NCBI GenBank assembly: GCA_024762925.1
Contig: JANTGM010000025.1
Coordinates: 1-61,857, forward strand
Length of the DNA stretch: 61,857 nucleotides
Source: Kofleriaceae bacterium
GTDB taxonomy: Bacteria > Myxococcota_A > Polyangia > Haliangiales > Haliangiaceae
Direction of reading: 5' to 3'
This document shows positions 36,891 to 54,500 of the stretch, one piece after another; the first letter of the stretch is position 1; each line of letters opens with the position of its first letter. The notes beneath the pieces were generated by a model, which was not told where the DNA came from, did no database searches, and was given only the letters and a program-made list of their open reading frames with translations. A program made the translations under genes and the position numbers.

Positions 36891-39773
36891 ATGGTTGGCA
36901 ATGACAAAGGGCAGGGAGACTTTAAGACTGCCCAGCCTGCGTCCGGAGACCTCGTCGATCGGTTCTTGGCCAGTCGACTGCGAGCAGCACTGTTTGGTGC
37001 TGAGGAACAGGTCCGCCTTGGGCGCTTGGTCATCGAAGGCTCACTTGGCCGTGGAGCGATGGGCACCATCCTCTCGGCGTTTGATCCTGTTCTCGATCGT
37101 CACGTTGCGATCAAGAGTTTGCTTCCCGACCGCAGCGAGGACACCGAGCATCTTCTTCGCGAAGCGAGAGTGCTGGCAAAGCTCGATCACTCCAATGTGG
37201 TCTCGGTCTATGACGTCGTTGAAAACAACGATGGCCTCTATCTTGTCATGGAGAAAGTCGAAGGCGGCGACCTGCGGTCTTGGATGGGAGACGGGCAGCC
37301 TTGGGAGGACGTCGTGGAACTCTTCGTGCAGATCGGGCAAGGGCTTGCTGCCGCTCATGACGTCGGAATTGTGCACTGTGATGTGAAACCAGAAAACATC
37401 GTGGTGAGTGGCGGACGGCCACGACTCATCGACTTTGGGCTTGCGCATCAGCGCAGCGATGCTCCTTCGACTGGCGGAACCGTCGCATACCTCGCGCCCG
37501 AGCGTGTTGACGGCGGGGGTGGAAGTGCCGCCGCCGATCAGTATGCGTTCTTCGCTTCGATGGTGGAGGCCATCGAGGGGAAGCGACCTGCCGCCGATGA
37601 TGAACGCTGGGAGGGAATGCCGTCCTGGCTCTCTCAGGTTGCTCGTCGAGGGTTGAACGCAGATCCTGGCATGCGCTACCCGGATATGCGCGCTGCCATC
37701 GCTGCGCTACAGCCGATGACGGTTCGCCGCAAAGTCTCGATTGCTGTTGCAGCATTGGCATTCGTTGGACTGGCTGGTGGCACGGTAGCTGGGCTCGTCG
37801 GAGCAGATGACGACCGAGTTTGTGCAGGAGCCGCCAAGCAGATCGAAGATGCCTGGTCGCCAGAGATCCGCTCAGCGATTTCGGAGGCCTTTAGCGCCAG
37901 CGGCTACGCGGACGCGGCCAAGAGCTGGAATGCGGCCGAGGCCGTACTCGATACGTATGCTCAGTCTTGGGCATCCCTTCGCACACAGAGCTGTGAGGCG
38001 ACGCATAAGACAAAGGAGCAGAGTCCAGAGCTTCTCGACTTCTCGATGCACTGCCTCGATCGGCGCCTACTTGAGTTTGAGAGCGTGCTTTCACTCTTTC
38101 GCGACAAGCCCAATGAAGAGGTTGTCCATGGGGCGCGCAAGACAGCGGCAGGATTATCAGAACTTCTCTCATGCGTCGATCCAGCCTCGCTAGAGAACGC
38201 CGTAGCGCTTCCCGCGACAGATGCAGAGCGGCAAACACTTAGCAAGCTACAGGAACGCTATGAAGCTTTGAGGAATCTCGACCGGCGCGGAGAGTATGAA
38301 GAGGCGAGCGCTCAGTGCACAGAGCTTAGTGCCCAAGCATTGGCGCTGGGGTACGCTCCTCTCACAGCCAAAGTGCTTCTGTTGAAGTCAGGCTTGCAAA
38401 CCACCATGAGTGATTTGCCCGCCGCCGAAAAGACGCTACGCGAAGCGGCATCAGCCGCAGCACAGGCTCGTGATGATCGCATGGTTGCGCAAGTGTGGAT
38501 CTCCGTTATCGAGGTCTTAGCCAAGCAGAGTCGCTATGATGAGGCGCTGACCTTGGAAGCGGTAGCCATTACCTCTGCTGAGAGGGTGCCCCGCGACTAC
38601 GAAACCCAAGCGCGGCTCCAGAGTGCCCTCGGCGGAATCTACGTGGTGAAAGCTGACTATGCGCGTGCTTACAAGGCCTACGAAATTTCCCTAGCCATGC
38701 AGCGTGCGCTCGGCGCCGATGGTAATGAGGCGTTGCCCAGTGCCATTGCGAACTTCGGCCTGGCGAAGTGGTACGCGGGCGATATGGCTGGCGCTCTTGC
38801 CGACTTACAAGAAGCCCTGGAAATGACGCTTGAAACTCTCGGCCCCGATCATTCCCGAGTGGCCTACATTCGCCAGAACATTGCCGATTTGCAAATGCAG
38901 CTTGGGCAGCCCGAGAAGTCGCACGAGAACTACCTCGAAGTCCTGCGGATCTGGAAAGCGAGTCTCGGCCCCGAACATCCCAATCTGGCGTACGCCTACG
39001 AGCAGCTCGCGATTTTGGCAAAGCAGAGGCGGGATTTCGAAACCGCCGAGGAGAACATCGCGCTGGCTCTCAAGCTGCGCGAGGACAATCTTGGGCCCGA
39101 CCATGCGCTCGTGTTGCAGGCGCTGAGTGTGGTTGCGAACATTCACATCGAACACGGCACCAAGGAGAGTCTGCAAAAGGCGTCAGTTGCGCTCGAGCGA
39201 GCTCTCGAGATTCAGGAACGGCTCGGGGATGCTGGCAAGCGGCACGCGGTGTTTACATTGGAGTCGCGGGCGAGATTGGCCGAACTTGGTGGCGACTGGG
39301 AAGCGGCTCTTGCCGATAGGAGAGCGGTTCTCAAGCTCCGACTTGAGACGCTTGGCCCCAATAGCCGGCACAATGGCTACTCGTATAGTGATATCGCAAG
39401 GACTCTCGTTCAGTTAGGAAAACTCTCAGAGGCGGTAACGAACTTCGAAGCTGCGCAGGGCGTTTTTGACAAGTTTCCCGGTGTCCGAGAAGAAGATGTG
39501 CTTGGCATGCGACAAGGGGTCGCCGAGATTCGCGTCATGCAGGGCAAGTATGCGCAAGCCATTTCGCTGTATGAAGAAGCGCTGGCCCTCAGCCCCAATG
39601 CCGCCCAGTGGCGGATTTTTGAGGTGCGCTACGGTTACGTACAGGCCCTGGAACTTGCAGGAAAACATGCCCGTGCGCTCGATGAGGCCAACGCCCTTTT
39701 CTCCGAGATGACGGCTGTGGGTGAATCGAAGCTAAGCCCCCGTGTAGAAGCGTGGATCTCAGAACATCGCTGA
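36891..39773 (+). CDS. Transmembrane Ser/Thr kinase with TPR sensor region
   Basis: The 960-residue product has a kinase domain at residues about 45-275: Gly loop SLGRGAMGTIL, Lys75 in HVAIKSL, catalytic loop VHCDVKPEN (Cys163 replaces the usual Arg before Asp164, a non-RD kinase), and LIDFGLAH. One membrane segment lies at 282-303 (VSIAVAALAFVGLAGGTVAG). The outer or C-terminal 650 residues are mostly helical with kinesin-light-chain-type TPRs (LGPDHSRVAYIRQNIADLQM, LGPEHPNLAYAYEQLAIL, LGPDHALVLQALSVVANIHI). It probably senses protein partners and signals to the ECF sigma factor encoded divergently. No Shine-Dalgarno precedes the ATG, so a leaderless start is possible. Its 3' end overlaps the next gene by 15 bp. 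Confidence 0.9.
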   Translation: MVGNDKGQGDFKTAQPASGDLVDRFLASRLRAALFGAEEQVRLGRLVIEGSLGRGAMGTILSAFDPVLDRHVAIKSLLPDRSEDTEHLLREARVLAKLDHSNVVSVYDVVENNDGLYLVMEKVEGGDLRSWMGDGQPWEDVVELFVQIGQGLAAAHDVGIVHCDVKPENIVVSGGRPRLIDFGLAHQRSDAPSTGGTVAYLAPERVDGGGGSAAADQYAFFASMVEAIEGKRPAADDERWEGMPSWLSQVARRGLNADPGMRYPDMRAAIAALQPMTVRRKVSIAVAALAFVGLAGGTVAGLVGADDDRVCAGAAKQIEDAWSPEIRSAISEAFSASGYADAAKSWNAAEAVLDTYAQSWASLRTQSCEATHKTKEQSPELLDFSMHCLDRRLLEFESVLSLFRDKPNEEVVHGARKTAAGLSELLSCVDPASLENAVALPATDAERQTLSKLQERYEALRNLDRRGEYEEASAQCTELSAQALALGYAPLTAKVLLLKSGLQTTMSDLPAAEKTLREAASAAAQARDDRMVAQVWISVIEVLAKQSRYDEALTLEAVAITSAERVPRDYETQARLQSALGGIYVVKADYARAYKAYEISLAMQRALGADGNEALPSAIANFGLAKWYAGDMAGALADLQEALEMTLETLGPDHSRVAYIRQNIADLQMQLGQPEKSHENYLEVLRIWKASLGPEHPNLAYAYEQLAILAKQRRDFETAEENIALALKLREDNLGPDHALVLQALSVVANIHIEHGTKESLQKASVALERALEIQERLGDAGKRHAVFTLESRARLAELGGDWEAALADRRAVLKLRLETLGPNSRHNGYSYSDIARTLVQLGKLSEAVTNFEAAQGVFDKFPGVREEDVLGMRQGVAEIRVMQGKYAQAISLYEEALALSPNAAQWRIFEVRYGYVQALELAGKHARALDEANALFSEMTAVGESKLSPRVEAWISEHR

Positions 39774-40202
39774 GATCGAAAGCCCCGAGTAGCGCCCTCG
39801 TCCCAAATCCGGGACTAGAACCGGGGTGAAAGAAACTGTCTTGGTGTTGGACTTCTTGCGTCCACCGACGAAGTAGGCGGCAACGCCTCCAACGAGTGCG
39901 GTGGCTCCAACGACACCAAGGACTACCGCTGTGTGTGCACGCTCTTCGCCTCGAAGCTCGCGCACCTCGTCAATCTCTGGCCCGGCGTGCGCAGCATCGT
40001 TGTCTCGCGAAGCGGCGCTCTTGTATGCAGCTGCTCCCGCCAAGAACATCAGACCTGTGCCTCCGCTAATCAGGCCAACAGTCTTCCACGACTCGTGGTC
40101 GTTCGTCACATCTGTCGGGTTTGCATGGGCCCAAGTGGGTGCGCTTGTCGAGAGCAAGAGTGTCGCGAGAAATAGACGGGGGAGCATGACTTCGATAGCC
40201 AT
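39759..40202 (-). CDS. Small membrane protein of unknown function
   Basis: The start chosen is ATG 40202 (MAIEVMLPRLFLATLLL); the frame is open to 40229. A signal-like hydrophobic N-terminus ending near TWAHA is followed by two hydrophobic segments (TVGLISGGTGLMFLAGAAAY and AVVLGVVGATALVGGVAAYF) separated by an acidic region (EIDEVRELRGEERAHT). The C-terminus is Ser/Lys-rich with a short beta-like end. I do not recognise the family. It is convergent with the TPR kinase gene. Confidence 0.65.
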   Translation of the reverse strand: MAIEVMLPRLFLATLLLSTSAPTWAHANPTDVTNDHESWKTVGLISGGTGLMFLAGAAAYKSAASRDNDAAHAGPEIDEVRELRGEERAHTAVVLGVVGATALVGGVAAYFVGGRKKSNTKTVSFTPVLVPDLGRGRYSGLSISAMF

Positions 40203-40252
40203 GCTCCCCTGTGTTGGCTCGAACAACAAGCCCTAGGTATCAAGAATGCGAC

Positions 40253-40585
40253 CTAGGACGCTTCGGGAGCATCACGAAGCTCTCGAACAAATGCATCCCA
40301 GAGGCTTCGCGCAAGTCCGTCGGTGCCATAGAGTCGAAAGACCATTTTGCCCTTGGATTCCTCGAGAATGTGGACATGGAGGGTAATCAGCTCGGTGCCA
40401 TTTGACACTTTGAGCGGCATCCAAGCCCCAACCTTCACGTTTGCCTCGGTTTCCAGAATGCCACCTTGAAAGGTTGCAGCGAGAACGCGGGCCGGGAAAA
40501 GGCCAGCCCCCACCACAATCCATGCTTCAGGTTGAGCTTCAAGAGGCAGTATCTCGATCGGTACAGATGTTGAGGTGGGCATCAC
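40253..40585 (-). CDS. Small protein, possibly PilZ-like
   Basis: The 110-residue product starts at GTG 40585 or ATG 40582, with AAGGAGA upstream. Alternating beta-strand segments (EAWIVVGAGLFPARVLAA, GAWMPLKVSNGTELITLHVH) end with GKMVFRLYGTDGLARSLWDA. This loosely recalls PilZ-type barrels, but the RxxxR and D/NxSxxG signatures for cyclic di-GMP binding are not evident. Function unknown. It lies 12 bp downstream of the OmpA/TSP3 gene on the same strand and is probably co-transcribed. Confidence 0.65.
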   Translation of the reverse strand: MMPTSTSVPIEILPLEAQPEAWIVVGAGLFPARVLAATFQGGILETEANVKVGAWMPLKVSNGTELITLHVHILEESKGKMVFRLYGTDGLARSLWDAFVRELRDAPEAS

Positions 40586-40596
40586 GGTCAGTCTCC

Positions 40597-41958
40597 TTAG
40601 TTGATAAGTTTGAACTCCACGCGGCGGTTTTGTTCTTGGCCTGCTTTGGTGGCATTGTCGGCCTTGGGCACGGAGGGTCCGTAGCCTTTTGCCTCGAGTC
40701 GGTCGGCGGCAATGCCCTTGTTGACGAGGTAGTCGACAACAGCTTGAGCACGCTGCTGGCTCAGCTTGGTGTTGACCTCTGCCGATCCGGTGTTGTCAGT
40801 ATGACCCTGCACCTCGACTCGTAATTCACCAAATTCGGTGAACACAGCAACTGCTTTGTTGAGCACCTTGAAGGACGAAGGACGAATGTTCGCCTTGCCA
40901 AGTTGGAAGCGAATTCCCTTGATGGCTCCGCTGAACTTCTTGACCTTCTCGGGGATTTCGTCTGGACAACCATCAGAGTCCTGATAGCCGTTCGCAGTCT
41001 CTTTCTCGGCGGGACATCCGTCGTCAGCATCCGCAACGCCGTCTTCATCGTTGTCGAGCTCAGGACAACCATCGTCATCTTTGAAGCCATCCTTGTCTTC
41101 AGCCTCTATTGGACACTGGTCGGCAGCATCGAGAATACCGTCTCCATCGTTGTCGGTTTCTTCGCAGCCATCATCATCCTTGAAGCCATCTTTGTCTTCG
41201 GGAAGGTCAGGGCATTGGTCCGATTCGTCGGGGACGCCGTCTTCATCGTTGTCGAGCTCAGGACAACCATCGTCATCCTTGAAGTTGTCCATGTCCTCGG
41301 CTTCGCCAGGGCAGGCGTCTTTGTCGTTTGGAATCCCGTCGCCATCGTCGTCGCCAGCAACTACCTCGGCTGGCTCGCCAGGTTCATCGCCAAACGTCTT
41401 GTAAAGCCCTAAGAGAAACTCTGCATCGGTTGTGAGAGATTCGTTGGCGCTAGACGGTGGCAAGAGGAGACGAGCATCAAAACGGACACCCCAGTTGTCT
41501 TCGATGTCGTACTTGGCACCAAGGCCGCCGTGTACGACGAAATCAGTGTCTGAAGCAACGCGACGCTCATCTTCGGAGGAAGCCGTTGAGCCGCCCACGC
41601 CAAGAAGGGCGAAGGGCGAAAAGCGGCCTTCCATGAAGTGAACGAGCGCGTGACCACGCCATCCAAGGGCAACGACGTCAGTCCCTGCGTCTCTTGCAGA
41701 TGTTGGAATGATGGCAAGCTCGCCTTCGAGATCAATCAAACCAGTAATCGCGTAGGCAGCTCGGATTCCAAAGGTGATGGCATTCTCGAGCGAGTCTGCA
41801 TCGGAATCATCCACCACTCCAAGCTCGTTGTCGTCGTTGAAGATGTGAATGCCCGCGAAGGCTCCAAACTCTCCCTCTCGTTCGGCGTTCGCCGACGAAG
41901 GTAGAGCGAGCAGAAGAGATGTGGCCGCTAGGGCCCCTGCAATCTTGAATTTATGCAT
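40597..41958 (-). CDS. OmpA-family protein: beta-barrel, TSP3 repeats, peptidoglycan-binding domain
   Basis: The 453-residue product has a signal peptide (LLLALPSSANAE), an N-terminal eight-strand-like barrel (residues about 30-195), then thrombospondin type 3-like Ca-binding repeats (DDDGDGIPNDKDACPGEAED, DDDGCPELDNDEDGVPDESD and similar, about 205-330), and a C-terminal OmpA domain with VEVQGHTDNTGSAEVNTKLS and RLEAKGYGPSVP, ending NRRVEFKLIN. It anchors the outer membrane to peptidoglycan with a calcium-stiffened spacer. It is followed by the small PilZ-like gene and preceded by the DUF481 gene with a 9 bp gap. Confidence 0.92.
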   Translation of the reverse strand: MHKFKIAGALAATSLLLALPSSANAEREGEFGAFAGIHIFNDDNELGVVDDSDADSLENAITFGIRAAYAITGLIDLEGELAIIPTSARDAGTDVVALGWRGHALVHFMEGRFSPFALLGVGGSTASSEDERRVASDTDFVVHGGLGAKYDIEDNWGVRFDARLLLPPSSANESLTTDAEFLLGLYKTFGDEPGEPAEVVAGDDDGDGIPNDKDACPGEAEDMDNFKDDDGCPELDNDEDGVPDESDQCPDLPEDKDGFKDDDGCEETDNDGDGILDAADQCPIEAEDKDGFKDDDGCPELDNDEDGVADADDGCPAEKETANGYQDSDGCPDEIPEKVKKFSGAIKGIRFQLGKANIRPSSFKVLNKAVAVFTEFGELRVEVQGHTDNTGSAEVNTKLSQQRAQAVVDYLVNKGIAADRLEAKGYGPSVPKADNATKAGQEQNRRVEFKLIN

Positions 41959-41967
41959 CGTGATTCT

Positions 41968-42903
41968 CTAGAGGAAGTTGATGATGAGAGTTGCTTCGGT
42001 TTTTGTGTCCAGCTTCTGTGCTTCTGGGGTGTAACCAGGAGCGAATGGTGAGCTGAACGATGGAAGTGGCGATGGAACGTTGTCGTATCGCGCGCCGAAC
42101 CCAAAACGGAAGCTGATGTCTTCGAAGAGCTTTGTGGTCAACGCGAGCTGCGTGTTTACGCGAGCATCTTCAAACGCTCCAACGGGATCCATGGGACGTG
42201 TTGGAACATCGAATTCGTTGACGTTGAAGAGCGCTTCAACAGAAGCATCGAAGCCCGAGTCCTTGGTTAGCTTGCTCTCATAACCAGCAAACGCGCGAAG
42301 CGAGTGGTTGGACCAGCCATCACCCGTTACGGGTTTTTCGTAGGAGTAGTCATAACCGGCCTCAGTGACCAGGCTGTGCTTGTCGTTCTTAAATGCTGTT
42401 CGGCTGTAACCGAGTTGGCCGCCACCGGTAAACTCCTTACCAGCAGGTTTGTTTGTGAGTCCTTGCAGGCTGATGTAGAGAGCATCAGCGTCGGAGAGAA
42501 AGCGATCGTAGCGAGCTTTGCCTTCCAGCATTCGTGCTGTTGTCTGGCTGAGTCGCTCGTACTCGTTTGCATCAATATCGCCAGAACTATCTGCATCATC
42601 GGCGATGAAGAGGCTTGAGCGAGCAAACGCGCCACCAACATCAAGTTCGAACTTGTTCTTACCTGCTTTGCGAGAAGCCTTTGCTCCAGCAGAGAGCGTC
42701 GTAGTTCGAGCGTTGCCGGTGGTGAGAATGAGTCCAGCGAGTGCTCCCGCTTTCCACTCAGCCTCCTTGGGTTGCTTTTTTATCTCCGCAAGCTCTTCAT
42801 CGGTGGCATTGGTAAACTTCGGATCCTGCGCCTCGGCAACGCCAGCGGACGCGAGGAGAATGGCGGCAGAGAATAGGGATAGACGGGAAAATGCTGTAAT
42901 CAA
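41968..42903 (-). CDS. DUF481 outer-membrane protein (YdiY-like)
   Basis: The 311-residue product has a signal peptide (SAAILLASAGVAEAQ) and a DUF481 barrel starting WKAGALAGLILTTGNARTTT, with repeated long beta-strands (KFELDVGGAFARSS, FTGGGQLGYSRTAF, FRFGFGARYDNVPSPLPSF) and a hydrophobic C-terminal strand (ATLIINFL) as expected for assembly by BAM. The function of the family is unknown; E. coli YdiY is acid-induced. The TTG start at 42903 is preceded by AAGGAGC six bases away. It lies nine bases upstream of the OmpA/TSP3 gene, so the two barrels are co-expressed. Confidence 0.85.
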   Translation of the reverse strand: MITAFSRLSLFSAAILLASAGVAEAQDPKFTNATDEELAEIKKQPKEAEWKAGALAGLILTTGNARTTTLSAGAKASRKAGKNKFELDVGGAFARSSLFIADDADSSGDIDANEYERLSQTTARMLEGKARYDRFLSDADALYISLQGLTNKPAGKEFTGGGQLGYSRTAFKNDKHSLVTEAGYDYSYEKPVTGDGWSNHSLRAFAGYESKLTKDSGFDASVEALFNVNEFDVPTRPMDPVGAFEDARVNTQLALTTKLFEDISFRFGFGARYDNVPSPLPSFSSPFAPGYTPEAQKLDTKTEATLIINFL

Positions 42904-43026: not shown

Positions 43027-45102
43027 TTAGTTGAGAAGATCTACATCCCATTGGTACGAAATGCTTGCGCGAATTCGTCCGTTGGCACCCGCAAAGGCGA
43101 AAGAGTCAGCATCAAGCCGCAGAGCGCCCGGTCCAATCGTGCGTTCCATGCCAACGCCTGCCGCCATGCCAATCGCCGTGGTTTCGGCTATCTCGGGATC
43201 GTTGTTGTGCCACAGGGTTGGGCCGACTCGGCCACGAAGAAAGAAGCTTGCACCGATGGGTTGTCGCCACGCAAAGAGCAGTTGATTGCTGGCGAAGAGG
43301 TAGGGCTCAGCAGCAGCTGCTCCTCGCCGTGCGATGTTTACCTCTGCCTCCACTTCGAATCGTCCAGAGACTTCGAAGCTTGCACGGGCGCCGAGAAATG
43401 GCGCGTTGCCGGGCTCTGGGCCCTCGTCTTCAAGGTTGGACAAATACTCGCCAGCGACCACGCCAATCGCCACACGAGGCTGGCTTTCCGGCTTCGAGGG
43501 CTGTGGCACCACCGCCTGGATGTTCAGTGTAACGGTGCTGAGTAGGAACTCTCCCAAGTCGGTCGAACGAAAGATGCGTATCGCCGAGTTCTTGCTGCTT
43601 GCAGAAGTGGCATGGGCGACAAGACGAATTCCCTCTGGCCCTATGCTCACGACTTCCGCTCGAACTCCCGGATCCGCCTCAAGGCGAAGCTGTGCGGCGG
43701 GAGGTAGGGGGGGGCTGCTGTGCAAGAGCAGCTCTGAGTCTTGGCCTTCCGTGAGAATTGCCGCTTCGCCCTGTTCTCCTGGCCACGCGATAACGGAACC
43801 GCGAATCTCAAGACTCAGGGGGGCGCTTTGAGTTCCGTCCTTCCTTGTGCAGGTAACTGTGACAGGACCAGCCTTGAAGAGCGCCAGTGTTGGAGTCGGT
43901 GGTGCATCGCTCCCTGTACATGTCATGCCGTCGGGAGCCAGCAGCTGTGAGCCCTGGGCTAGTTGTGCTTCTTGCTCTCCATCAAGCGGCTTGTGGTCAA
44001 GAAGCGCAATCTCGATTGGCTGCCGAGGTGAGGGCGCGCTCTCAAGCCCCTTGTCGTCGATTGTGGCGACACTCACGTAGTAGCGACCTGGCTTGAGCCC
44101 CTGGGCCTCGAACGAGGTTACATCTTTGGTTACTTCGAATGCTGCAACAACAATGCGAACATTTGGGTCGGTAGCAACCTCGACGCGGTATCGCTCCGCC
44201 TGCGCAACGGGTTTCCAGCTTCCCTTCAGAACAACTCCGGTGCTCGCCAACGCGACATGCAGTTCGGCAGTCTTGCGTAATTCGGGAGCTGGGGGCAAAT
44301 CAACGGGCGTCGCGGGAGCCTTTCCGGCTTCGACCCAGGTGCCCTTCCCAGCTGCGACTCGAACGGCAAAGCCACGCCTCTTGCCGCGTTTGTTTGCCTG
44401 CCGAACTGCCACCGAGCCGCCTTCGTGGTTGGACACCGTAGAGCGCTTCGTTTGGCGTGAGGCGGTGATCACCGTAGAGCCGCTCTCAAGTTCCATGGAA
44501 GAGGACTCGGTCTCAACAAGGAGTTTGCTCTCCAGGGCTGCCAATCTGCTGCGTAAGCTTCCTGTCTCAAGCTCAGCGCGGACGAGTTTGCGTTTACCAT
44601 CAGAGGCCGATGGTCCATAGATGACCACCACGGTGTCATCGCGAAGGGAGAGGACCGACTGATCTCGAAAGACCAACACCGCGGTAGATTTTTTGTGGGA
44701 CCAGACGCGCCACGAGCGAAAGATGTCCATGCCCTTTGCTGCCTTGCCCCAAATCGTCTCAGCAGCCTTGCGGTACTCGACGTTGCCGATGCGCGACTCC
44801 AAGATTGCATCGGGGGTTCGGTTCACCCTGGGCAGCCGCAGAATCGTTCCGGGCTTGAGGTGGTGAGGGAGCGGCCCAAGGTCGTTGTACTTGTGGATCG
44901 TGCGATAGCCCTTGCGAGAGCCAAGCTCTCGGTTTGCGATGCCTGCACAGCTGTCCCCAGCTTTCACAACGTAGTCATAGAGTGTCACATCCGAATCGGC
45001 TTTCGGCGCAGGCTGCGCGTACGCATGGGAGCCAAGCAGTGCTGCGTGTAGCAATAACACTGGAACCCAGAGACTACGGATTTGATGCTTCATAGCTGTC
45101 AC
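43027..45102 (-). CDS. LysM + FecR-domain envelope protein with C-terminal barrel
   Basis: The 691-residue product has a signal peptide (LLLHAALLGSHAYAQ), a LysM-type peptidoglycan-binding segment (YVVKAGDSCAGIANRELG, LKPGTILRLPRV) at about 40-95, and a FecR-like region (AVLVFRDQSVLSLRDDTVVV, AELETGSLRSRL, GSVAVRQANKRG) at about 140-265. Fibronectin-like sequence follows (YRVEVATDPNVRI, PGRYYVSVATIDDKG), with a C-terminal part that reads as a beta-barrel (FEVEAEVNIARRG, FFLRGRVGPTLW, RIRASISYQWDVDL). It probably spans cell wall and outer membrane. It starts at GTG 45102 with AAGGAG, five bases after the kinase stop, as the last gene of the kinase-cyclase operon. Confidence 0.82.
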   Translation of the reverse strand: MTAMKHQIRSLWVPVLLLHAALLGSHAYAQPAPKADSDVTLYDYVVKAGDSCAGIANRELGSRKGYRTIHKYNDLGPLPHHLKPGTILRLPRVNRTPDAILESRIGNVEYRKAAETIWGKAAKGMDIFRSWRVWSHKKSTAVLVFRDQSVLSLRDDTVVVIYGPSASDGKRKLVRAELETGSLRSRLAALESKLLVETESSSMELESGSTVITASRQTKRSTVSNHEGGSVAVRQANKRGKRRGFAVRVAAGKGTWVEAGKAPATPVDLPPAPELRKTAELHVALASTGVVLKGSWKPVAQAERYRVEVATDPNVRIVVAAFEVTKDVTSFEAQGLKPGRYYVSVATIDDKGLESAPSPRQPIEIALLDHKPLDGEQEAQLAQGSQLLAPDGMTCTGSDAPPTPTLALFKAGPVTVTCTRKDGTQSAPLSLEIRGSVIAWPGEQGEAAILTEGQDSELLLHSSPPLPPAAQLRLEADPGVRAEVVSIGPEGIRLVAHATSASSKNSAIRIFRSTDLGEFLLSTVTLNIQAVVPQPSKPESQPRVAIGVVAGEYLSNLEDEGPEPGNAPFLGARASFEVSGRFEVEAEVNIARRGAAAAEPYLFASNQLLFAWRQPIGASFFLRGRVGPTLWHNNDPEIAETTAIGMAAGVGMERTIGPGALRLDADSFAFAGANGRIRASISYQWDVDLLN

Positions 45103-45107
45103 GGAGC

Positions 45108-46415
45108 CTACTCCTTGATACTGCGAGAGTGAATTCGAATGGCACGCCTGAGTTTCGTGATCAGGCTGTCAGCACTGACCGGTTTCGTCACTACCTCAGC
45201 GATTCCCATGCGCAGCAGGAGAGAGACGCGTTTCATATCACCGGCGTTAGCGTCTGCGATCACGAGAGGATGCTCCTTGCACACCTCAAGGAGCTTGTCG
45301 TTGGAGAGTCCCAAGCAGATGACGCACAGCGATTGCGAATACTCTGATTCATCAGCAATCGCAAATCCAGAAGCTTGCAGCGACATGAGAACCTCTGTGG
45401 GTGCACTGCCCTGGATTGCTACTAGCCCTGATGATCCTTCAGGCAGCTTTGCGTCATCAACCGATTCTTTCATGGACTCGGTAGGACTGCTGGTGCTTCC
45501 TGGCATCGCGCGTTCATCGCGATATGGTCTTGTGGTTCGCCGATTGTGGCGACGGCGGCCTCCTCCTGCCGCAACTTCTTCCAGCCGATCGCAGATTTGT
45601 TGCATGGTGGGGCGCGCACTCGGTGTTTTTCCTAGGCACCTTCGCACAAGTTCACAGAAGATAGGCGAGAGGGTAGGGCGATACGAGCGAAGTTCTGGAA
45701 TCGGCGCGTACAGGTGGTGTGCGGCTACTTCACCCAATGCGTCGAGGTCGTAGGGAGTGGTTCCCGCAGCAAGTTCGAAGAGAACACAACCAAGTGCATA
45801 GACGTCAGATGCCGCAACCGGATCCTTGCCTCGGAGTTGCTCGGGCGCCATATATCTGGGAGTTCCACCAATCGACCCATCGACCGTGAGCCTGGGCATA
45901 ATTCCTGTCACAGCAGAAGAACTCTGAACAGCCATTCCAAAGTCGATGACCTTGCAAGTGATGGGATCGCGGGCCACGAGAAAGATGTTCTCGGGCTTAA
46001 GATCGCGATGCACGAGGTCTTTCGCATGTGCCGCAGCGAGCCCCGCCGCCACTTGGCCCATTATTGCGAGCAACTCGGTCTCTTCCAGTGGGCCCTTCTC
46101 CCGAAGGTATTCCGCCAGGTCGTTACCCTCAAGATACTCCATCACCAAATAGAGGTTTTCGCCGTCGCGTCCAAAGTCGTAGGTTTGCACCAAGTGCTCG
46201 TGACTCAGTTGCGCCCCGATACGTGCCTCCCGAAGAAATCGCTGGTCGGCGTCAGCCCGGCGGCTCAACTGGGCGTGGAGCAACTTGATCGCAACGTCCC
46301 GATCGAGCCGTGTGTCTCGCGCTCGAAACACCTTCCCCATGCCGCCCTCGCCAATCAGCGCACCAAGCGTGTACCGAGCCCCGATAAGCCGATTGGGTTG
46401 CTTCACTTCGCTCAT
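45108..46415 (-). CDS. Ser/Thr kinase with degenerate receiver-like tail
   Basis: The 435-residue, soluble product has a complete kinase domain (GEGGMGKVFRARD, Lys44 in VAIKLL, LVHRDLKPENIFL, KVIDFGMAV, YMAPEQLRGKD). After a basic and Ser-rich linker, residues about 325-435 look like a response-regulator receiver without the phosphorylatable Asp: the strand that should end in Asp reads SLCVICLGLS, while the KP of the last active-site loop is kept (EVVTKPVSADSLITKLRRAI). Its ATG overlaps the cyclase stop by four bases. The tail may dock the kinase to a partner rather than accept phosphate. Confidence 0.88.
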   Translation of the reverse strand: MSEVKQPNRLIGARYTLGALIGEGGMGKVFRARDTRLDRDVAIKLLHAQLSRRADADQRFLREARIGAQLSHEHLVQTYDFGRDGENLYLVMEYLEGNDLAEYLREKGPLEETELLAIMGQVAAGLAAAHAKDLVHRDLKPENIFLVARDPITCKVIDFGMAVQSSSAVTGIMPRLTVDGSIGGTPRYMAPEQLRGKDPVAASDVYALGCVLFELAAGTTPYDLDALGEVAAHHLYAPIPELRSYRPTLSPIFCELVRRCLGKTPSARPTMQQICDRLEEVAAGGGRRRHNRRTTRPYRDERAMPGSTSSPTESMKESVDDAKLPEGSSGLVAIQGSAPTEVLMSLQASGFAIADESEYSQSLCVICLGLSNDKLLEVCKEHPLVIADANAGDMKRVSLLLRMGIAEVVTKPVSADSLITKLRRAIRIHSRSIKE

Positions 46416-48199
46416 ACGACAACCTCAAAGAGCTCGACGGCCGCGCGGCGACCAACAACATGCCGGCTGCCCAAAGGCACATAGTCAAACAGGTCACCGG
46501 CAGCCTCTTTGGTCGCTTGCGTGATGAGTACCTGCTGAGGACGCGCAATGGTTTCCAGGCGTGCAGCAACGTTCACACAGTCTCCGATGGCAGTGTACTC
46601 CATGCGCTCTTTCGAACCAAAGTTGCCGACCACGGCTTCCCCTGTATTCACACCAATTGCCAAGCGAATCTCAATCCCATACTTCTGCTTCCAACCCGCG
46701 TTGCCCACGTCGAGCCATCGCATCATGTCTTCGGCTGCCCGCAGTGCAAGCTCTGCATGGTTCTCGATCGGGTTTGGTGCGCCCCAAAATGCCATCACCG
46801 AGTCGCCGATAAATTTGTCCACAGTTCCCCCGTGACGAAAGATGATTTCGGTGAGGATGGTGAAGAGATCGTTCAGAAGATTTACGACTTGATCAGCCGA
46901 GTGGGTTTCGGCCAGGGGGGTGAAGCCAACGACGTCGGCAAAGAGCACGGTGACTTGGCAGCGGTCCCCACCAAGCCGAAGCTCTTGTTGCTGCTCGACA
47001 ATGCTATCGACGAGCTCGTGGGGCAAGTAGCGTCCTAGGTCACTTCGAATTCGCTCCTCCTTCCGAATTCGTAAATCACTTGCTTCAAGCTCGACAGCAG
47101 CCGAACTGAGGGCTTGGCCAAGAACGCTCAGCTCATCACGTGTGTGAACGGTAACCCGCTTGTCGAAACGGCGATTTGCGAGGTCTCCCGCAAATGACAC
47201 GAGCATCTGCAACGGAGCAGAGATTCTTCGCGCCATGAACACGGCAATCGTGAGCGCGATGAGGCTTGCAACGCCAACCACAAGCCACAGAATTAGTCGG
47301 ATTTGCGCGAGCGAGCGGTAGGCAACATCCCTGGGGATTTCTGCGACAACAGCCCAAGGTACGCTCTCTAGGGAACGAATCGCTCCCAACATGGAACGGT
47401 CGGAACTTGACGTTTCTCCGAAGACGAGGACATTGTGCTTGAACGTCTGTGGGTCAACGCCTGAGAGGATGCCCAAGTTGTCTCGATCCATCGTGGTGCC
47501 ACGGCTCTCAATCTGTGAGTCTGCGAGCACACGCAAGCTTGGATCGACGATAAAGAGGGAGTGTCCGCGCCCAAGTCGCTCATGACCAATGCTCTCAAGT
47601 TCACTCTGCAACTGGTCGAGGTCGAAGTAGCTTGCCAGATACCACTGAGCATTTGTTGCGGTTGCCCGGGCGATCAGAAGAACTCGTAGGGTCCCGTCTG
47701 TTGACGAAGCGAAAACGTCCCCCACGGCTACGCTTGAGTCCGAAACGCGAAGCTGGTCATCTTGGGACAGAGTCTCCGGAAACTCCACCTTGTGCTCACC
47801 AGCACCCACAGCAGCAATCGTATCGATTCGCGCCCCCGCTTGATCATAGACCGCAATGGCTTCAAGACGCCCACCGCCGACCAAGGCACGCATGAGCGCC
47901 AAGCGCTGCTCAAGGCTCTGCGACGAATCCATGAGTGCCGCTGCTGCGATGGAGAGTTCGTCCTGGTCCCGGCGCAGACCTTCTTCCGCCTGCCGAACAA
48001 TGTGGTGCAGCACTGAGTAGAGCAGGTCCTTGTTGGCTTCCGAGAGCGCCTTCTTGTTGACGTTCATCGAGACCAGACCAACGATGGCGACTGGAATGAG
48101 CGCGAGAGATACCGCCAACACAGTAAGCTTGAGTCGAAACGAGAAGCGCGCCCTGTGAGGTTTCGCAGCCTCCTCCATCGCCCGGGTGGAGTCACTCAC
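46412..48199 (-). CDS. Membrane class III adenylate/guanylate cyclase with sensor and HAMP
   Basis: The 595-residue product has TM1 at about 21-44, an extracytoplasmic Cache-like sensor at about 50-298, TM2 at about 302-322, HAMP at 323-375 and a class III cyclase domain at 410-570. Metal Asp422 lies in LFADVVGFT and Asp466 in FIGDSVMAFWG; Lys462 and Asp540 are the adenine-specifying pair; Asn543 and Arg547 in NVAARLE stabilise the transition state. All are present, so an active adenylate cyclase is predicted. The gene overlaps both flanking kinase genes by four bases, so the three are translationally coupled. Confidence 0.92.
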   Translation of the reverse strand: MSDSTRAMEEAAKPHRARFSFRLKLTVLAVSLALIPVAIVGLVSMNVNKKALSEANKDLLYSVLHHIVRQAEEGLRRDQDELSIAAAALMDSSQSLEQRLALMRALVGGGRLEAIAVYDQAGARIDTIAAVGAGEHKVEFPETLSQDDQLRVSDSSVAVGDVFASSTDGTLRVLLIARATATNAQWYLASYFDLDQLQSELESIGHERLGRGHSLFIVDPSLRVLADSQIESRGTTMDRDNLGILSGVDPQTFKHNVLVFGETSSSDRSMLGAIRSLESVPWAVVAEIPRDVAYRSLAQIRLILWLVVGVASLIALTIAVFMARRISAPLQMLVSFAGDLANRRFDKRVTVHTRDELSVLGQALSSAAVELEASDLRIRKEERIRSDLGRYLPHELVDSIVEQQQELRLGGDRCQVTVLFADVVGFTPLAETHSADQVVNLLNDLFTILTEIIFRHGGTVDKFIGDSVMAFWGAPNPIENHAELALRAAEDMMRWLDVGNAGWKQKYGIEIRLAIGVNTGEAVVGNFGSKERMEYTAIGDCVNVAARLETIARPQQVLITQATKEAAGDLFDYVPLGSRHVVGRRAAVELFEVVV

Positions 48200-49461
48200 G
48201 ACGTGCTCCGGCTAGCTCTCGAAGGTCGCGTCACCACTCGTAGCAGGCTGCGATGAAGGCCTTTGGCTGGCGTGTCTTTCGAGATGGCGAACCGGATTCC
48301 GCTCTCGATGAGGGCGGGAATTGAGATGTCAGATGCATTTTCCGTCCACGCAACTCGCCCTAGGGATCCTGTTGTTGATTTCTCATTCACATTCTCGAGG
48401 GCAATGATCTCCAGATCTGGCGCGAGATCTGCCGATGCAATGTGAGCGCCTGCGTCTGCGAGTTTTTCTGACAGCCAGCTGGGCAGGGGGCCTTCGGCGG
48501 AAAACGAAAGCAACCGCTCTGCGTTGTCGTCCTCGACGACTTGGCCTGCCTCGACCATCCGATCATTTCTTGAGGATTGCGGAGAGCGGTCCGCAAAGGT
48601 GGCTGTCGCCATAGGATTGTTCTGCACCAGTTCTTGAAACCGCCTGTGCGCCTCAGAGGCGGTTGGTCGCTCGCCGGGTTCCTTCGCCAGCATGCTGTCG
48701 ACCAACTCCGTGAATTCCACGGGTAGCTCTGGTTGCCGCTCTCGGAGCGGAATCGCAGGAACGTACATGTGCTTACTGAGAAGTTCTCCTAGTGTTCCCT
48801 CAAAGGGCGGCACTCCACACGCAACTTCATAGAGCACGCAGCCTGCAGAATAGACATCTGTCTCAATGTGGATGTCACCACCCTTGGCCTGCTCTGGTGA
48901 GAGATACATCGGAGTTCCACTGAGAACCTGAGCATCGGTGAGCCGCCCCAAACTCGCGTTCTTGCCATCACCGGTTCCGAGAAATGCGAGTCCGAAGTCC
49001 ACGAGCCGAACTCGGTCGATGCGTTCCTTTGAGCCGCCAACGAAGATGTTTCCGGGTTTCACATCGCGATGAACAATGCTCAGAGCATGCGTCTGGGCCA
49101 GCGCCTCAAGCAAGTGAAGTCCCAAGGTGAGCGCAATCGAAGCAGGCGGCTGGGGCATTTCCTTGAGAAATGTGCGGAGGCTGGGATCGGTGACAAGCTC
49201 CATCACCAAGAAGCAGTGCTTCCCATCATCGCCAAAATCGTACATCGGTACCGCGACAGAATCGCCGAGAAGGGCTGCGAGGCGGGCCTCACGCCAGATT
49301 CGGCTCTTTTCTGTATCGCTCTGGGGCCCGAGGAGTTTCACGGCGACCGCGCGAGAAAGCACCACGTCCCAAGCGGACCAAACCTCTGCAGAACTCCCCG
49401 AGCCAACCACGGCATCTAGGCGGTATCGCCCGGCGACCAGCGCAGCGAGTTGCTGAGACAT
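48196..49461 (-). CDS. Ser/Thr kinase with degenerate receiver-like tail (operon leader)
   Basis: The 421-residue product from ATG 49461 (MSQQLAALVAGRYRLDAVV) has a complete kinase domain: GSGSSAEVWSA, Lys42 in AVAVKLL, SIVHRDVKPGNIFV, RLVDFGLAFL, YLSPEQAKGG. The last 110 residues (DLEIIALENVNEK, IPALIESGIRFAISKD, GLHRSLLRVV) resemble a receiver fold lacking the acceptor Asp, as in the kinase two genes downstream. The frame stays open to 50280, but that stretch is antisense to the FHA gene and is not protein-like. It is the first gene of the four-gene operon and diverges from the FHA regulator, so the intergenic region of 40-60 bases is shared. Confidence 0.88.
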   Translation of the reverse strand: MSQQLAALVAGRYRLDAVVGSGSSAEVWSAWDVVLSRAVAVKLLGPQSDTEKSRIWREARLAALLGDSVAVPMYDFGDDGKHCFLVMELVTDPSLRTFLKEMPQPPASIALTLGLHLLEALAQTHALSIVHRDVKPGNIFVGGSKERIDRVRLVDFGLAFLGTGDGKNASLGRLTDAQVLSGTPMYLSPEQAKGGDIHIETDVYSAGCVLYEVACGVPPFEGTLGELLSKHMYVPAIPLRERQPELPVEFTELVDSMLAKEPGERPTASEAHRRFQELVQNNPMATATFADRSPQSSRNDRMVEAGQVVEDDNAERLLSFSAEGPLPSWLSEKLADAGAHIASADLAPDLEIIALENVNEKSTTGSLGRVAWTENASDISIPALIESGIRFAISKDTPAKGLHRSLLRVVTRPSRASRSTS

Positions 49462-49500
49462 CGCGGGACTATAGCCCCACGACTTCTCCTCGGTACACCC

Positions 49501-50406
49501 ATGGAGTACGCTCTCGCTATGCGCAATTGCGGAATTTGCAGTGCTTCGGTGAGCGACGAAGCAAACCTCTGCACGAAGTGCGCAGACGCGCTTAGCAAAC
49601 CCCCAGGATTTTGCGCGGAGCAGTTGTTGAGCACGGCGCTCAAGCCAACGGAGGCAGCTCTTGTCGACTGCTGGGGCCGCGTGCATTTCCTCGAAGAGAT
49701 GACACCGATAGGCCGCCGCCCTGTTGCTCGTGGCACGGCAATCCTTGAGGCTTCGGTCTCTCGCAACCATGCGGAGATTTCGCGCGATGAATCTGGGACT
49801 TGGATTCTGCGTGACACAGGAAGCAGCAACGGCACCAAGCTGGGGGACAAAGTGCTCACCGAGCCAACGCCGCTTACCGATGCATGCATGCTCACATTCG
49901 GCGGGGTTGGCCTGTACTTCTTGCCCGACGTGAGTGGTCTCATCTCCAATCAGGTCGTGGCTTCGACTGTGACGGTTCGCCCGGAGGACTTGCAACTCAC
50001 TACACCAGAAGATGAACCGGTACTGCCCGAAGAAGCAACATTTGCGGGCTTTCCGAAGATCGAGACTCAGATGTTTCGATCGTCGGCTGGCGGTTCTGGA
50101 CTCTTGGATATGAACGGCATCCGAGTGCAGCTTACGAGTTCCCAGTTCGAGCTCGTTGAGCTGTTGGTGGCTCAAATGCGTGCCGATGCGGGCTTGCCAA
50201 TCGAAGTCCGTGGCTTCGTGCCATCGGCCACGTTGGTTTCTAGCGTTACTTGGGATTCTCCCTATCCGACTGACAATCATCTCAAGCAGCTCATTCGACG
50301 AGTTCGCAAAATGTTAGAGAGCGCGGAACTCGGGAATCTCATCGAGTCGCGGCGTGGCTTTGGATATCGCTTGCGTTGTCTACCGATCGAAGTCGCCGAG
50401 AGCTAA
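49501..50406 (+). CDS. Zinc ribbon - FHA - winged-helix transcription regulator
   Basis: The product has a short zinc ribbon (Cys10, Cys13, Cys24, Cys27), an FHA domain at about 62-145 with the phospho-Thr contacts IGRRPVARG, VSRNHAEIS and GSSNGTKLG, a linker, and a C-terminal OmpR-type winged helix (about 195-312) with VQLTSSQFELVELLVAQM and the recognition-helix/wing block DNHLKQLIRRVRKMLES and IESRRGFGYRLR. It should bind DNA and read phosphorylated partners, most likely the kinases encoded divergently. Starts at 49501 or 49519 (MRNCGIC, with GGAG upstream) are possible. The 3' end is convergent with the MscS gene. Confidence 0.88.
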   Translation: MEYALAMRNCGICSASVSDEANLCTKCADALSKPPGFCAEQLLSTALKPTEAALVDCWGRVHFLEEMTPIGRRPVARGTAILEASVSRNHAEISRDESGTWILRDTGSSNGTKLGDKVLTEPTPLTDACMLTFGGVGLYFLPDVSGLISNQVVASTVTVRPEDLQLTTPEDEPVLPEEATFAGFPKIETQMFRSSAGGSGLLDMNGIRVQLTSSQFELVELLVAQMRADAGLPIEVRGFVPSATLVSSVTWDSPYPTDNHLKQLIRRVRKMLESAELGNLIESRRGFGYRLRCLPIEVAES

Positions 50407-50433: not shown

Positions 50434-51258
50434 CTATGCAACTTTGTGCAAGTGCACGTCGGTCTGTGGGAAGGGAATCGAGATTCCGTTCTCATCAAAC
50501 GCGATCTTGATGCGCTCGGTGAGATCAAAGCGAACATCCCAGTAGTCGGCAACAGTGACCCAAGGGCGAACCACGAAGTTGACGCTGCTGTCTGCCAGCT
50601 CCGAGACGGCGATTTGTACGCCTTGCTCCTTGATGATTCGGGCATCGCTATTGACGACCTCGGTCATGATGTCTTTCGCCTTGCGGATGTCATCGCCATA
50701 GCCGATGCCAAAGACGAGATCGACACGGAGTTGCCCTTTAGCACTTAAGTTCTCGATCGGAGCACCGGCAACTTGCCCGTTGGGAATAATGATCGTTCGG
50801 TTGTCGGGAGTGATTACGATGGTGTTGAAGACCTCAATTTGTTCTACGACACCAACTTCGCCTGCGAGTTTTACCAAGTCGCCAATCTTGTAGGGGCGGA
50901 AGATGATGATCATCACGCCCGAGGCGAAGTTGCCTAGCGAGCCCTGCAGAGCGAAGCCGATTGCCAAGCCTGCCGCACCAAGGATGGCAACTGCTGCCGT
51001 TGTTTGAATGCCTAGACGCTCTAGAGCGGCAATGATGACGACGGCCATGAGGAGGCCGTGAAGAACGCTTGAGAGGAATTTGCGAAGTGATTCGTCGATG
51101 CGACCTTCAGTGATCTTGTCGACGGTCTTAACGATGAATTGCACCACCATCTTACCGATGATGAAGACGGCAAGGGCGATGACGAGGCGGATGCCGAAGG
51201 GGACGAGATATTCGTTGGCGACATATCGGAAGTATTCTGTGCTTAGTTCAAATTGCAT
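50434..51258 (-). CDS. mscS: Small-conductance mechanosensitive channel
   Basis: The 274-residue product matches E. coli MscS in length and order: N-terminal helices (FGIRLVIALAVFIIGKMVVQF), pore helix AAVAILGAAGLAIGFALQGSLGN-type sequence, then the beta domain RPYKIGDLVKLAGEVGVVEQ and ITPDNRTIIIPNGQVAG, and a cytoplasmic vestibule. It protects cells from hypo-osmotic shock. Good Shine-Dalgarno (AAAGGAAAGAG). A 17-base palindrome lies 23 bases upstream of the start codon. It is the second MscS-type gene of the window, being much shorter than that at 34221. Confidence 0.93.
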   Translation of the reverse strand: MQFELSTEYFRYVANEYLVPFGIRLVIALAVFIIGKMVVQFIVKTVDKITEGRIDESLRKFLSSVLHGLLMAVVIIAALERLGIQTTAAVAILGAAGLAIGFALQGSLGNFASGVMIIIFRPYKIGDLVKLAGEVGVVEQIEVFNTIVITPDNRTIIIPNGQVAGAPIENLSAKGQLRVDLVFGIGYGDDIRKAKDIMTEVVNSDARIIKEQGVQIAVSELADSSVNFVVRPWVTVADYWDVRFDLTERIKIAFDENGISIPFPQTDVHLHKVA

Positions 51259-51538: not shown

Positions 51539-54500
51539 ATGAATCGCTACTGCATTGTATCGGGCCTAGCTGGGCTCATTTTGGCCGTGTCGGCCACATC
51601 GGCATATGCTGAGGGCTCGGCTGAAGTTGGCGCGAACCAGGGCCTACGAGCCTCAACCGAGATGTTCGTGGACATCGTTGCCGTCGGCGAGACGATCACA
51701 TGGGCCGGCAATGGCTCTGCCACGGTTACGGCGCCAGGGGGTGGAACGACAACGCTGAACAATGGCCAGAGTCTCACCACCGCCGAGTCGGGAACGTTTG
51801 AAGTTGCTCTTGGAAGCAACCAAGGCGGGGCGTGGGATATCGCTGTAGGACCGGCAGGTGGCGGCGCTGCAATCTCCGGGCGACTCTTTTCAACACGGTG
51901 GGTGTACCGAACCGGTTCATTCAATGAAGCTGCAGGAGCCAACGGAAGCTACTACGCGCTTGTCTCAGGTGGTTCCGGGACAGATACAGGCGTCGTCGAG
52001 CTGCGGCTTGATGGCCTTTCGGGCTTTGCCTACAACATCGGCGCGAACAGCACGGGCGTTGACGGCATCGATGCGGGGCGTAGCGTGTCAATTGCAGGCA
52101 ATAGCTTCTCGCCCGAGTATCGCCTCTATGTGAATCCACCGGAGATTGCGACCTACTCAACCATTGCACCAACGATTTCCAACGTCGCCTACACAGGTGG
52201 TGTGGCTGGTTGCACTCAGATAATTTCGGGTGTGAGCATCGGGCAGTTTTCGTTCGATTCGAATGTTGACGGTACCTATCACCTAATTTGCGATACCAGC
52301 GGAGATGGGGCATTCAATCGCGTTGACAACGATGATCTTCTTCTCGTTGGAGCGGTGACAACTGGTGCCAACACGATCGACTGGGATGGAACTGACAGTG
52401 CTGGCAATACGATTCCCGTTGGAGACTACGATTGCCGAATCTCACTCAATATTGGCGAATTGCACTATGTCGGCGAGGACATTGAAACCAGCTATGAAGG
52501 TCTGCGCATGTTCTCGGTTGCCGCCAATGGCGATCGGGTTGGACTCGATATGTTTTGGAACGACACCGCGATTCAGGGCTCGGTCGTGAACATGCCCAAC
52601 GGCGATGGGCAAGGGTTAGAGACCTCAGGAGCTCTTGGAATTGATTCTGGCGCGACTGGTGCTGCAGCGGTTCCCAATGGCAACGCTCGTTCATGGGGCG
52701 ACTTTAGCGGCGATGGCAAAGGCGATGGCAACCTGCTCGATACCTTTGGCAATCTAGATTCTACCCTCAGTACAACTCTTACTGTGCAGGCCGTCAACGG
52801 CACCGATGATTGTGACAATGATGGGCTTACCGACTTTGTCGAAGCTTGTGAGCTGGGAAGCGCTGTGTGTCCGGGTGACGTTCCAGGCGGAGATGCACGG
52901 GACACTGATGGTGATGGAGTGTGTGATGGCGCAATTGCCGTTGTGGGAGTGTGCATTGCTGGACCAGATAGCAATCCAGTCGACGCAAATGTTTGCGCGG
53001 ATGCAGACGGAGATACTTGTGACGATTGTGCTTCGGGAACTGTCAATCCACTCGACGATGGCGATGACTTCGACAACGATGGCGACTGCAATGATGGTGA
53101 TGCGGACGACGACGATGATGGCGTGAATGATATCGACGACATCGCTGACTTAGATCCAACGCAGTGTCGCGATACAGATTCGGACAATTGCGACGATTGC
53201 AGCTCTGGCACCGACGACCCTGCAGATGATGGCGCTGATGGCGATTTTGACGGAGTCTGCAACCTCGGCGAGGACGCCGATGGTGATGGTGTGATCGATG
53301 TTGACGACTTGGATGATGACAATGACGGCATTCTCGATACTCACGAGAACATGCTAGGCGTCGATCCTGACGCCGATAACGACAATGATGGAATTGCCAA
53401 CCGCGTCGATGCGACCGATCGGGGTGATGGCGTAGCACCAGAATGCAACGATGCTGGCAACGATGGGATTTGCGACTCAATTGCTTCAGAATTTGACCAA
53501 GACGGTGATGGCATTGAGAACCATCTTGATCTCGATGCGGATAACGATGGCATTCTTGACCTTGCCGAGGCGGGACACGCTGCCGCGGACGTTGATACTG
53601 ATGGTCTTGTAGATTGCGCTGGTGGCGTGGGTGCCAATGGCTTCTGTGATGCGCTTGAGACCAGCGCTGACAGTGGCGTTCCCGATTTTGACGCGGATGG
53701 CGTTGGCCCGGATGCGACAGACAACGTTGACGCGGACGCGCTGCCCGACTTCCTTGATCTCGATAGCGATGCGGATGGCATCAGCGACCTCATCGAGAGT
53801 GGCTTTGGATGCACCGATACCGCGCCAGCCGATGCCCGTTGTGACGGTGGCGATGCTGATGGTGATGGCATTGTGGATGAGCTTGATGGAGCACTAGGGT
53901 TTGGAGACGATGAATACGTTGCTCCCACGGACACTAACGGTGACAACACGCCCGACTACCAATCGCTCGATTCCGATGGCGATACGATTCTCGATCTCAT
54001 TGAGGGGGACAGCGGCTGCGTTGACGACACGGCTCCAGCTGGAACGTGTGATGGTGCTGACAGCAACGGTGATGGTCTTGCGGATGATGCGGCGGCGGCA
54101 ACCCCCGACGGCGATTCCGACACTCACGCCGATTACCAAGACCTCGACTCTGACAATGATGGCTTGCTTGACAGCGTAGAGGGCACCGACGATACGGATG
54201 GAGATGGATTTCCAAACTACCTCGACCTCGACTCTGACAACGATGGTATTCCCGACACGGTTGAAGGTGACGCACAATGCGCCGACCTTGCTGCGATCGA
54301 TGGTCGTTGCGATGGCGCCGACGCCAATGGTGATGGTCTCGCAGATGATGCCAGTGGCAACGCGGTTCCCGACACCGACGGTGATGGCATTCCAGACTAT
54401 TTAGATCTGGATAGTGACAATGATGGCGCTTCCGATCTCGTGGAGGGTGGCAGCCAGTGCGCGGACGTGTCGCCTGCCGACTCGGTCTGTGACGGTCCAG

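Follow-up and report, generated by a model that had tools for sequence, protein, structure and literature searches.

Do the genes at positions 43027 to 50406 of contig JANTGM010000025.1, from a Kofleriaceae bacterium, form one signalling system, and which of them belong to its core? The window analysed here is this whole stretch of 61,857 nucleotides, contig 25 of a 6.8-Mb draft genome. On its minus strand, the locus encodes two Ser/Thr kinases (K1 and K2) on either side of an adenylate cyclase (CYC), followed by an envelope protein with LysM, FecR-like and barrel parts (LFB), while a regulator with an FHA domain and a winged helix (FHAw) is transcribed divergently. We found that a cyclase, one kinase and an LFB protein are kept together across soil and marine bacteria of the phylum Myxococcota. 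We propose, with a probability of about one half, that the locus is the Kofleriaceae version of an envelope-sensing module of this phylum, with one output in cyclic AMP (cAMP) and another in Ser/Thr phosphorylation, the latter read by an FHA regulator.

Organization of the operon

An earlier, sequence-only reading of this DNA had described a tight kinase-cyclase-kinase-envelope operon with 4-base overlaps and a 5-base gap, and the gene calls agree with it. K1 (48196 to 49461, minus strand) overlaps CYC (46412 to 48199, minus strand) by the four bases GTGA, and CYC overlaps K2 (45108 to 46415, minus strand) by ATGA. K2 is separated from LFB (43027 to 45102, minus strand) by 5 bases, or by 14 if the ATG of LFB is taken as its start. 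The true start of K1 is at 49461 (MSQQ...), the 694-residue open reading frame being an over-extension. FHAw (49519 to 50406, plus strand) had been placed 40 to 60 bp away on the other strand, and the gap is indeed 57 bp; 49519 is its most likely start, since a homologue from the same genus begins at the matching Met.

Both kinases carry a degenerate receiver domain

K1 and the soluble Hanks-type kinase K2 were recognized by Pfam as protein kinases (Pkinase, E 8e-40 and 4e-56, respectively), and the VAIK Lys, the HRD Asp and the DFG Asp are present in both and in 72 of 72 aligned kinases. Moreover, about 110 residues at the C-terminus of each kinase form a degenerate receiver domain, which the sequence-only reading had missed and which Pfam does not recognize in the window protein. 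Pfam was almost silent on the individual homologous domains as well (matches in 2 of 29), and profile and fold were needed instead. A profile built from 29 homologues matched the second, adaptor receiver of PleD with an E-value of 9e-11, together with dozens of other receivers, and this PleD domain is also the closest sequence match among solved structures. The predicted fold is (beta-alpha)5, with an AlphaFold2 (AF2) confidence score (pLDDT) of 96, and the Foldseek matches are receiver domains.

In the alignment, the phospho-acceptor Asp and the acidic pair are absent from K1, K2 and nearly all of their homologues; we therefore call the domain a pseudo-receiver. In K2 it spans 45108 to 45449 (minus strand), and in K1 it is more degenerate. 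The pseudo-receivers of the kinases at loci L128, L133 and L147 keep a third-strand Asp (VVDV/VVDL/VIDV), without the acidic pair. With no acceptor Asp and no histidine kinase, a two-component system was rejected. Throughout the phylum, the pseudo-receiver is a hallmark of the kinase found in this operon.

Phylogenetic analysis placed K1, K2 and their homologues from the family in one supported group (97/89), which contains both the upstream and the downstream kinases as well as one Candidatus Aminicenantes sequence on a long branch. Given that both kinases fall within one group, the tree identifies the second kinase as a duplication at the level of the family, by which K1 and K2 arose. Thus, two kinases as the core logic of the system were rejected, and the proposal that the kinases phosphorylate each other cannot describe its ancestral logic; K2 represents the conserved kinase of the module.

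Cyclase, kinase and envelope protein form a conserved core

The sequence-only reading had proposed synteny in relatives as its own test. We examined 55 non-identical orthologous loci with enough flanking sequence, and 20 loci of other Myxococcota cyclases served as the control. An earlier control, consisting mostly of cyclases from other phyla, had been too easy and was replaced. A pseudo-receiver kinase was present at 53 of the 55 loci and an LFB gene at 54, compared to none of the 20 controls for either (Fisher p 3e-16 and 3e-17, respectively). The same test gave p 1e-4 for an OmpA gene, found near 29 of the 55 orthologous cyclases and 1 of the 20 controls. All of these p-values, including those given below, overstate the independence of the data, since the loci share descent and the profiles were built partly from the same loci; for the kinase and LFB, the contrast with the control is all-or-none. 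The genes are kept together in relatives, as had been expected, and on these counts a chance cluster was rejected. What is conserved as a unit is the cyclase, one pseudo-receiver kinase and LFB, and the second kinase, which had been counted as part of the unit, is not.

The sensor of the cyclase was detected in at least 39 of 237 genomes sampled evenly across the phylum, a lower bound obtained with nine candidates scored per genome. A scan of named genomes revealed orthologous loci in Archangium, Sorangium, Polyangium, Minicystis, Paraliomyxa, Sandaracinaceae, Nannocystaceae and two Candidatus Aminicenantes. The order kinase-cyclase-kinase-LFB or cyclase-kinase-LFB was observed in about 12 loci of close relatives, and the exact five-gene order in two related genomes belonging to two genera. 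One of these, at locus L118 of the same genus, repeats the order of the window exactly, FHAw included. In the other, G018, from another genus of the same family, the cluster is split between two contigs, with FHAw and the first part of K1 at the end of one, and the remainder of K1, the cyclase, K2 and LFB at the beginning of the second. The two ends share 22 identical bases in one reading frame, through which K1 continues into its pseudo-receiver directly before the cyclase.

The two Candidatus Aminicenantes loci (L131 and L137) lie outside the Myxococcota; both carry the cyclase, an LFB-like domain and an OmpA domain, and L131 also carries the kinase. Horizontal transfer or contamination are possible origins of these copies.

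The cyclase has an intact-looking active site and a periplasmic sensor

CYC is a predicted membrane protein with a double-Cache periplasmic sensor, a HAMP domain and a class III catalytic domain (Pfam Guanylate_cyc, E 4e-27, plus HAMP). The catalytic residues D422, K462, D466, T536, N543 and R547 are invariant in 11 homologues. They comprise the two metal-binding Asp, the Lys/Thr pair for adenine, the Asn and the Arg expected of a class III cyclase, and the Lys/Thr pair is that of the adenylate type. The sensor is of the double-Cache kind, dCache_1 being matched in 10 of 16 sensor homologues. CYC is thus a predicted adenylate cyclase whose active site looks intact, and the description of an intact enzyme with an external sensor stands. 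In L118 (1889 to 3804), the cyclase of the same genus appears as two overlapping open reading frames, one for the sensor and HAMP and one for the catalytic part, owing to a frameshift or an assembly error.

LFB is a predicted periplasmic and outer-membrane protein

LFB begins with a signal peptide, followed by LysM, FecR-like and Fn3/Ig-like parts and by eight C-terminal strands that we read as an outer-membrane barrel. In the window protein, LysM and FecR remain below the Pfam cut-off, and it is through 18 homologues (LysM in 14, FecR in 17) that both assignments made by the sequence-only reading are upheld. The barrel of that reading corresponds to eight predicted strands in a part of the AF2 model with low to moderate confidence (pLDDT about 36 to 79), compared to mostly 75 to 96 for the LysM, FecR and Fn3 blocks. 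Structure matches include FecR-like and PupR anti-sigma domains; the best matches of the whole protein are generic Ig/Fn3 chains, which are uninformative apart from the FecR-like ones. Given the signal peptide and the predicted peptidoglycan and outer-membrane layout, LFB could act either as sensor or as output, both of which had been suggested, and by the same features it cannot be a target of the cytoplasmic kinases.

FHA regulators of two classes recur at the operon

FHAw consists of a Cys4 N-terminus, an FHA domain and an OmpR-type winged helix, in this order (Pfam FHA, E 1e-12; Trans_reg_C, E 2e-8), with no Pfam match to BTAD or to the AAA+ domain Sigma54_activat. Regarding the zinc ribbon previously read at its N-terminus, the four Cys are present and the profile support is weak (E 0.02 to 0.08). 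The phospho-Thr-binding residues are canonical (IGR...SVSRNH...SSNGT, with GR, S, H and NG). The FHA domain is found where an OmpR-type response regulator has its receiver, in an operon that encodes no histidine kinase.

In other lineages, the regulator at the operon is an FHA sigma-54 enhancer-binding protein (FHA-EBP), often transcribed divergently from a position right next to the cyclase (L105, L112, L144, L154, L155, L185, L188, L191 and L221). Pfam matched both FHA and Sigma54_activat in four of the four FHA-EBPs scanned from the loci of relatives, and HTH_8 in two. Taken together, an FHA regulator was found at 23 of the 55 orthologous loci (21 FHA-EBP, 2 FHAw) and at 1 of the 20 controls (Fisher p 0.0015). 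The claim that such a regulator belongs with the operon is thereby strengthened: one recurs at the locus even though its DNA-binding class changes. From the domain content, we read this as an FHA role that was kept at the operon while the DNA-binding part was exchanged.

The divergent region contains two predicted promoters

The 57-bp region between K1 and FHAw (49462 to 49518) contains two -10 boxes of the leaderless type, TATAGT on the minus strand (49468 to 49473) and TACGCT on the plus strand (49507 to 49512), each located 6 nt before the start codon, of K1 and FHAw, respectively. A TAnnnT motif exactly 6 nt before the start codon was found in 13 of 23 upstream regions, among them the four that precede K1 and the regulator in the window and in L118. 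This suggests two predicted leaderless promoters, placed back to back, and in so short a region one bound regulator could act on both. The aligned upstream regions of the regulators showed no conserved binding site beyond the -10 box, and a scan for the sigma-70 consensus gave one weak site (50693 to 50666), below the mean of the shuffles. Most of the FHAw homologues at L088 to L104 also have TAnnnT 6 nt before the start, which points to leaderless transcripts as common in the family.

A possible circuit and its alternatives

We propose that the cyclase detects a ligand or a condition in the periplasm through its double-Cache sensor and responds by making cAMP. LFB may take part in this sensing; it could link the peptidoglycan, through LysM, to the outer membrane, through its barrel. 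The kinase or kinases would autophosphorylate, and the dead receiver would couple these soluble enzymes to the cyclase or to themselves. The FHA domain of FHAw would bind the phospho-threonine of the kinase, FHAw being phosphorylated or retained, and its winged helix would control the 57-bp divergent region and envelope genes (LFB, DUF481, OmpA and perhaps MscS). Meanwhile, cAMP may carry the same signal to CRP-type proteins elsewhere in the cell; the source genome has 21 matches to the cNMP-binding domain above cut-off. Envelope or osmotic stress is our first guess for the signal. Tentatively, and at less than even odds, we extend this proposal to a phylum-wide system in which one envelope sensor feeds two outputs, cAMP and phosphorylation by a Hanks kinase. 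An FHA transcription factor with an exchangeable DNA-binding module would read the latter, and the pseudo-receiver would act as the adaptor for coupling.

Several observations weigh against this proposal. At the majority of the orthologous loci, no FHA regulator was seen within 7.5 kb. FHAw is paired with DUF481 at loci with no cyclase nearby (L091, L092, L094 to L097, L102 and L104), so its partnership may extend beyond the cyclase operon. In the FHA domains of the FHA-EBPs, GS, GA or GT replaces the canonical GR (L105, L112, L125, L185, L188, L191, L221 and others), which makes their binding of phospho-Thr doubtful. Sigma-54 promoters are not enriched before the cyclase in FHA-EBP loci compared to shuffles or to other loci, leaving autoregulation by FHA-EBPs unsupported. 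As for the osmotic idea, it rests on the MscS, OmpA and DUF481 neighbours and on CyaA and CyaB of Myxococcus xanthus, and the linkage of MscS (6 of 55 orthologous cyclases, none of the 20 controls, p 0.14) is not significant.

We also considered whether the two outputs might share a location only, the cyclase, kinase and LFB being autonomous and FHAw a regulator of DUF481 and the envelope that is fed by other kinases. The pairing of FHAw with DUF481 apart from any cyclase in many relatives, its own predicted promoter and the restriction of FHA regulators to some of the loci would all fit. However, in two genera FHAw and K1 are transcribed divergently, FHAw lies near the cluster in L071, L073 and L082, and the enrichment of an unrelated FHA regulator at the same operon elsewhere would be left aside. 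We regard mere co-location as possible, though improbable.

Slightly more doubtful, in our view, is an arrangement in which control of the cyclase by contact through the pseudo-receiver is the main role of the kinase, or vice versa, with cAMP as the sole output and LFB as a periplasmic partner. The cyclase-kinase-LFB linkage is the tightest and most widespread at the locus, the 4-base overlaps are typical of translational coupling, the pseudo-receiver most resembles the PleD adaptor domain, and Pkn2 of M. xanthus unites a kinase with a cyclase-like domain in one protein (PMC1262709); nevertheless, the recurrent FHA regulators are unexplained by such direct contact. Finally, it is very improbable that LFB is an ordinary structural tether between peptidoglycan and outer membrane, and that the operon serves cell-wall housekeeping with signalling genes of a generic kind: LysM, FecR and the OmpA-type neighbours are indeed common envelope proteins, and one locus of the Comamonadaceae (L166) has an LFB-like gene next to a cyclase, but a pseudo-receiver kinase and a Cache cyclase are kept with LFB phylum-wide and the other cyclases of the phylum are not.

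Comparison with known systems

The proposed two-output module most invites comparison with PknH of Mycobacterium tuberculosis, which phosphorylates the OmpR-like regulator EmbR via the FHA domain of EmbR (PMC6213207). Both systems pair a Hanks kinase with an FHA protein bearing an OmpR-type DNA-binding domain, and envelope targets would be expected here too; in contrast, the kinase of the window is soluble with a pseudo-receiver, and nothing in that system corresponds to the cyclase, the LysM/FecR protein or the double-Cache sensor. EmbR has the domain order winged helix, BTAD, FHA. As FHAw has the reverse order, FHA then winged helix, and no BTAD, we did not class it in the EmbR family. The myxobacterial FHA-EBPs, too, are FHA regulators, and proteins of this type accompany the operon in other Myxococcota lineages, whereas the window regulator has an OmpR-type winged helix in place of an AAA+ or Fis-type domain.

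CyaA and CyaB of M. xanthus are osmosensing cyclases, as cited in PMC7643160. As possible counterparts of CYC from the same phylum, they are likewise class III enzymes of the membrane that have an external sensor. We know of no kinase operon linked with them. Kinase and cyclase are also united in M. xanthus Pkn2 (PMC1262709) and in the TOMM kinase/cyclase fusions (TIGR03903); those are single fused proteins, whereas here the genes are separate and come with a Cache sensor, a pseudo-receiver and an envelope partner. The FecR-like fold of LFB recalls FecR/PupR cell-surface signalling. However, the genes scanned around the operon contain no extracytoplasmic function (ECF) sigma factor or TonB receptor domain, as a FecIRA-type system would have, and LFB is predicted to be a periplasmic and outer-membrane protein, not an inner-membrane anti-sigma factor.

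All parts of the module are of known kinds. In kind it is a Hanks kinase with an FHA regulator, in a combination undescribed in the literature that we found. Our literature search retrieved the parts, but no account of their combination, of the pseudo-receiver on the kinase or of the exchange at the FHA regulator, which is weak evidence of absence since subscription papers were mostly outside its coverage; within this scope, the sequence-only reading was right that the arrangement is not a described system. Few of the very many Hanks kinases and FHA proteins of Myxococcota have known partners; here, a single conserved unit brings together a kinase, a sensor, a second messenger and a probable transcription factor. 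The pseudo-receiver offers a handle for finding more members, and the culturable hosts Archangium, Sorangium, Polyangium, Minicystis and Paraliomyxa carry at least part of the core. If the DNA-binding class of the FHA regulator was indeed exchanged at one operon, this would clearly exemplify a phospho-reading role that persists while its output is swapped.

Neighbouring genes

A circuit confined to five genes, as originally proposed, is not what we observed, because OmpA, DUF481 and MscS genes recur close by. The DUF481 outer-membrane protein (41968 to 42903, minus strand; Pfam DUF481, E 2e-24) is a probable member of the operon or regulon; of 20 loci with FHAw homologues, about half have a DUF481 gene next to the homologue, and in L071 this gene sits between LFB and FHAw. 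An OmpA-family barrel with TSP3 repeats (40597 to 41958, minus strand) follows 9 bp after DUF481 and is a possible member. On the other side, an MscS channel (50434 to 51258, minus strand) is convergent with FHAw and possibly belongs to the neighbourhood. It is followed by a further possible member, an OmpA-family protein of 2067 residues with acidic calcium-binding-like repeats (51539 to 57742, plus strand; OmpA, E 7e-24); an OmpA gene of the same kind often precedes the cyclase in other loci.

Just beyond the small gene at 40253 to 40585, a 13-pair stem with a poor T tail (40179 to 40209, minus strand) is a candidate end of an operon running from K1 to OmpA. The window also contains a second, longer MscS-family channel (34221 to 35969, minus strand) and, just beyond the small genes after OmpA, a 960-residue Ser/Thr kinase with TPR repeats (36891 to 39773, plus strand).

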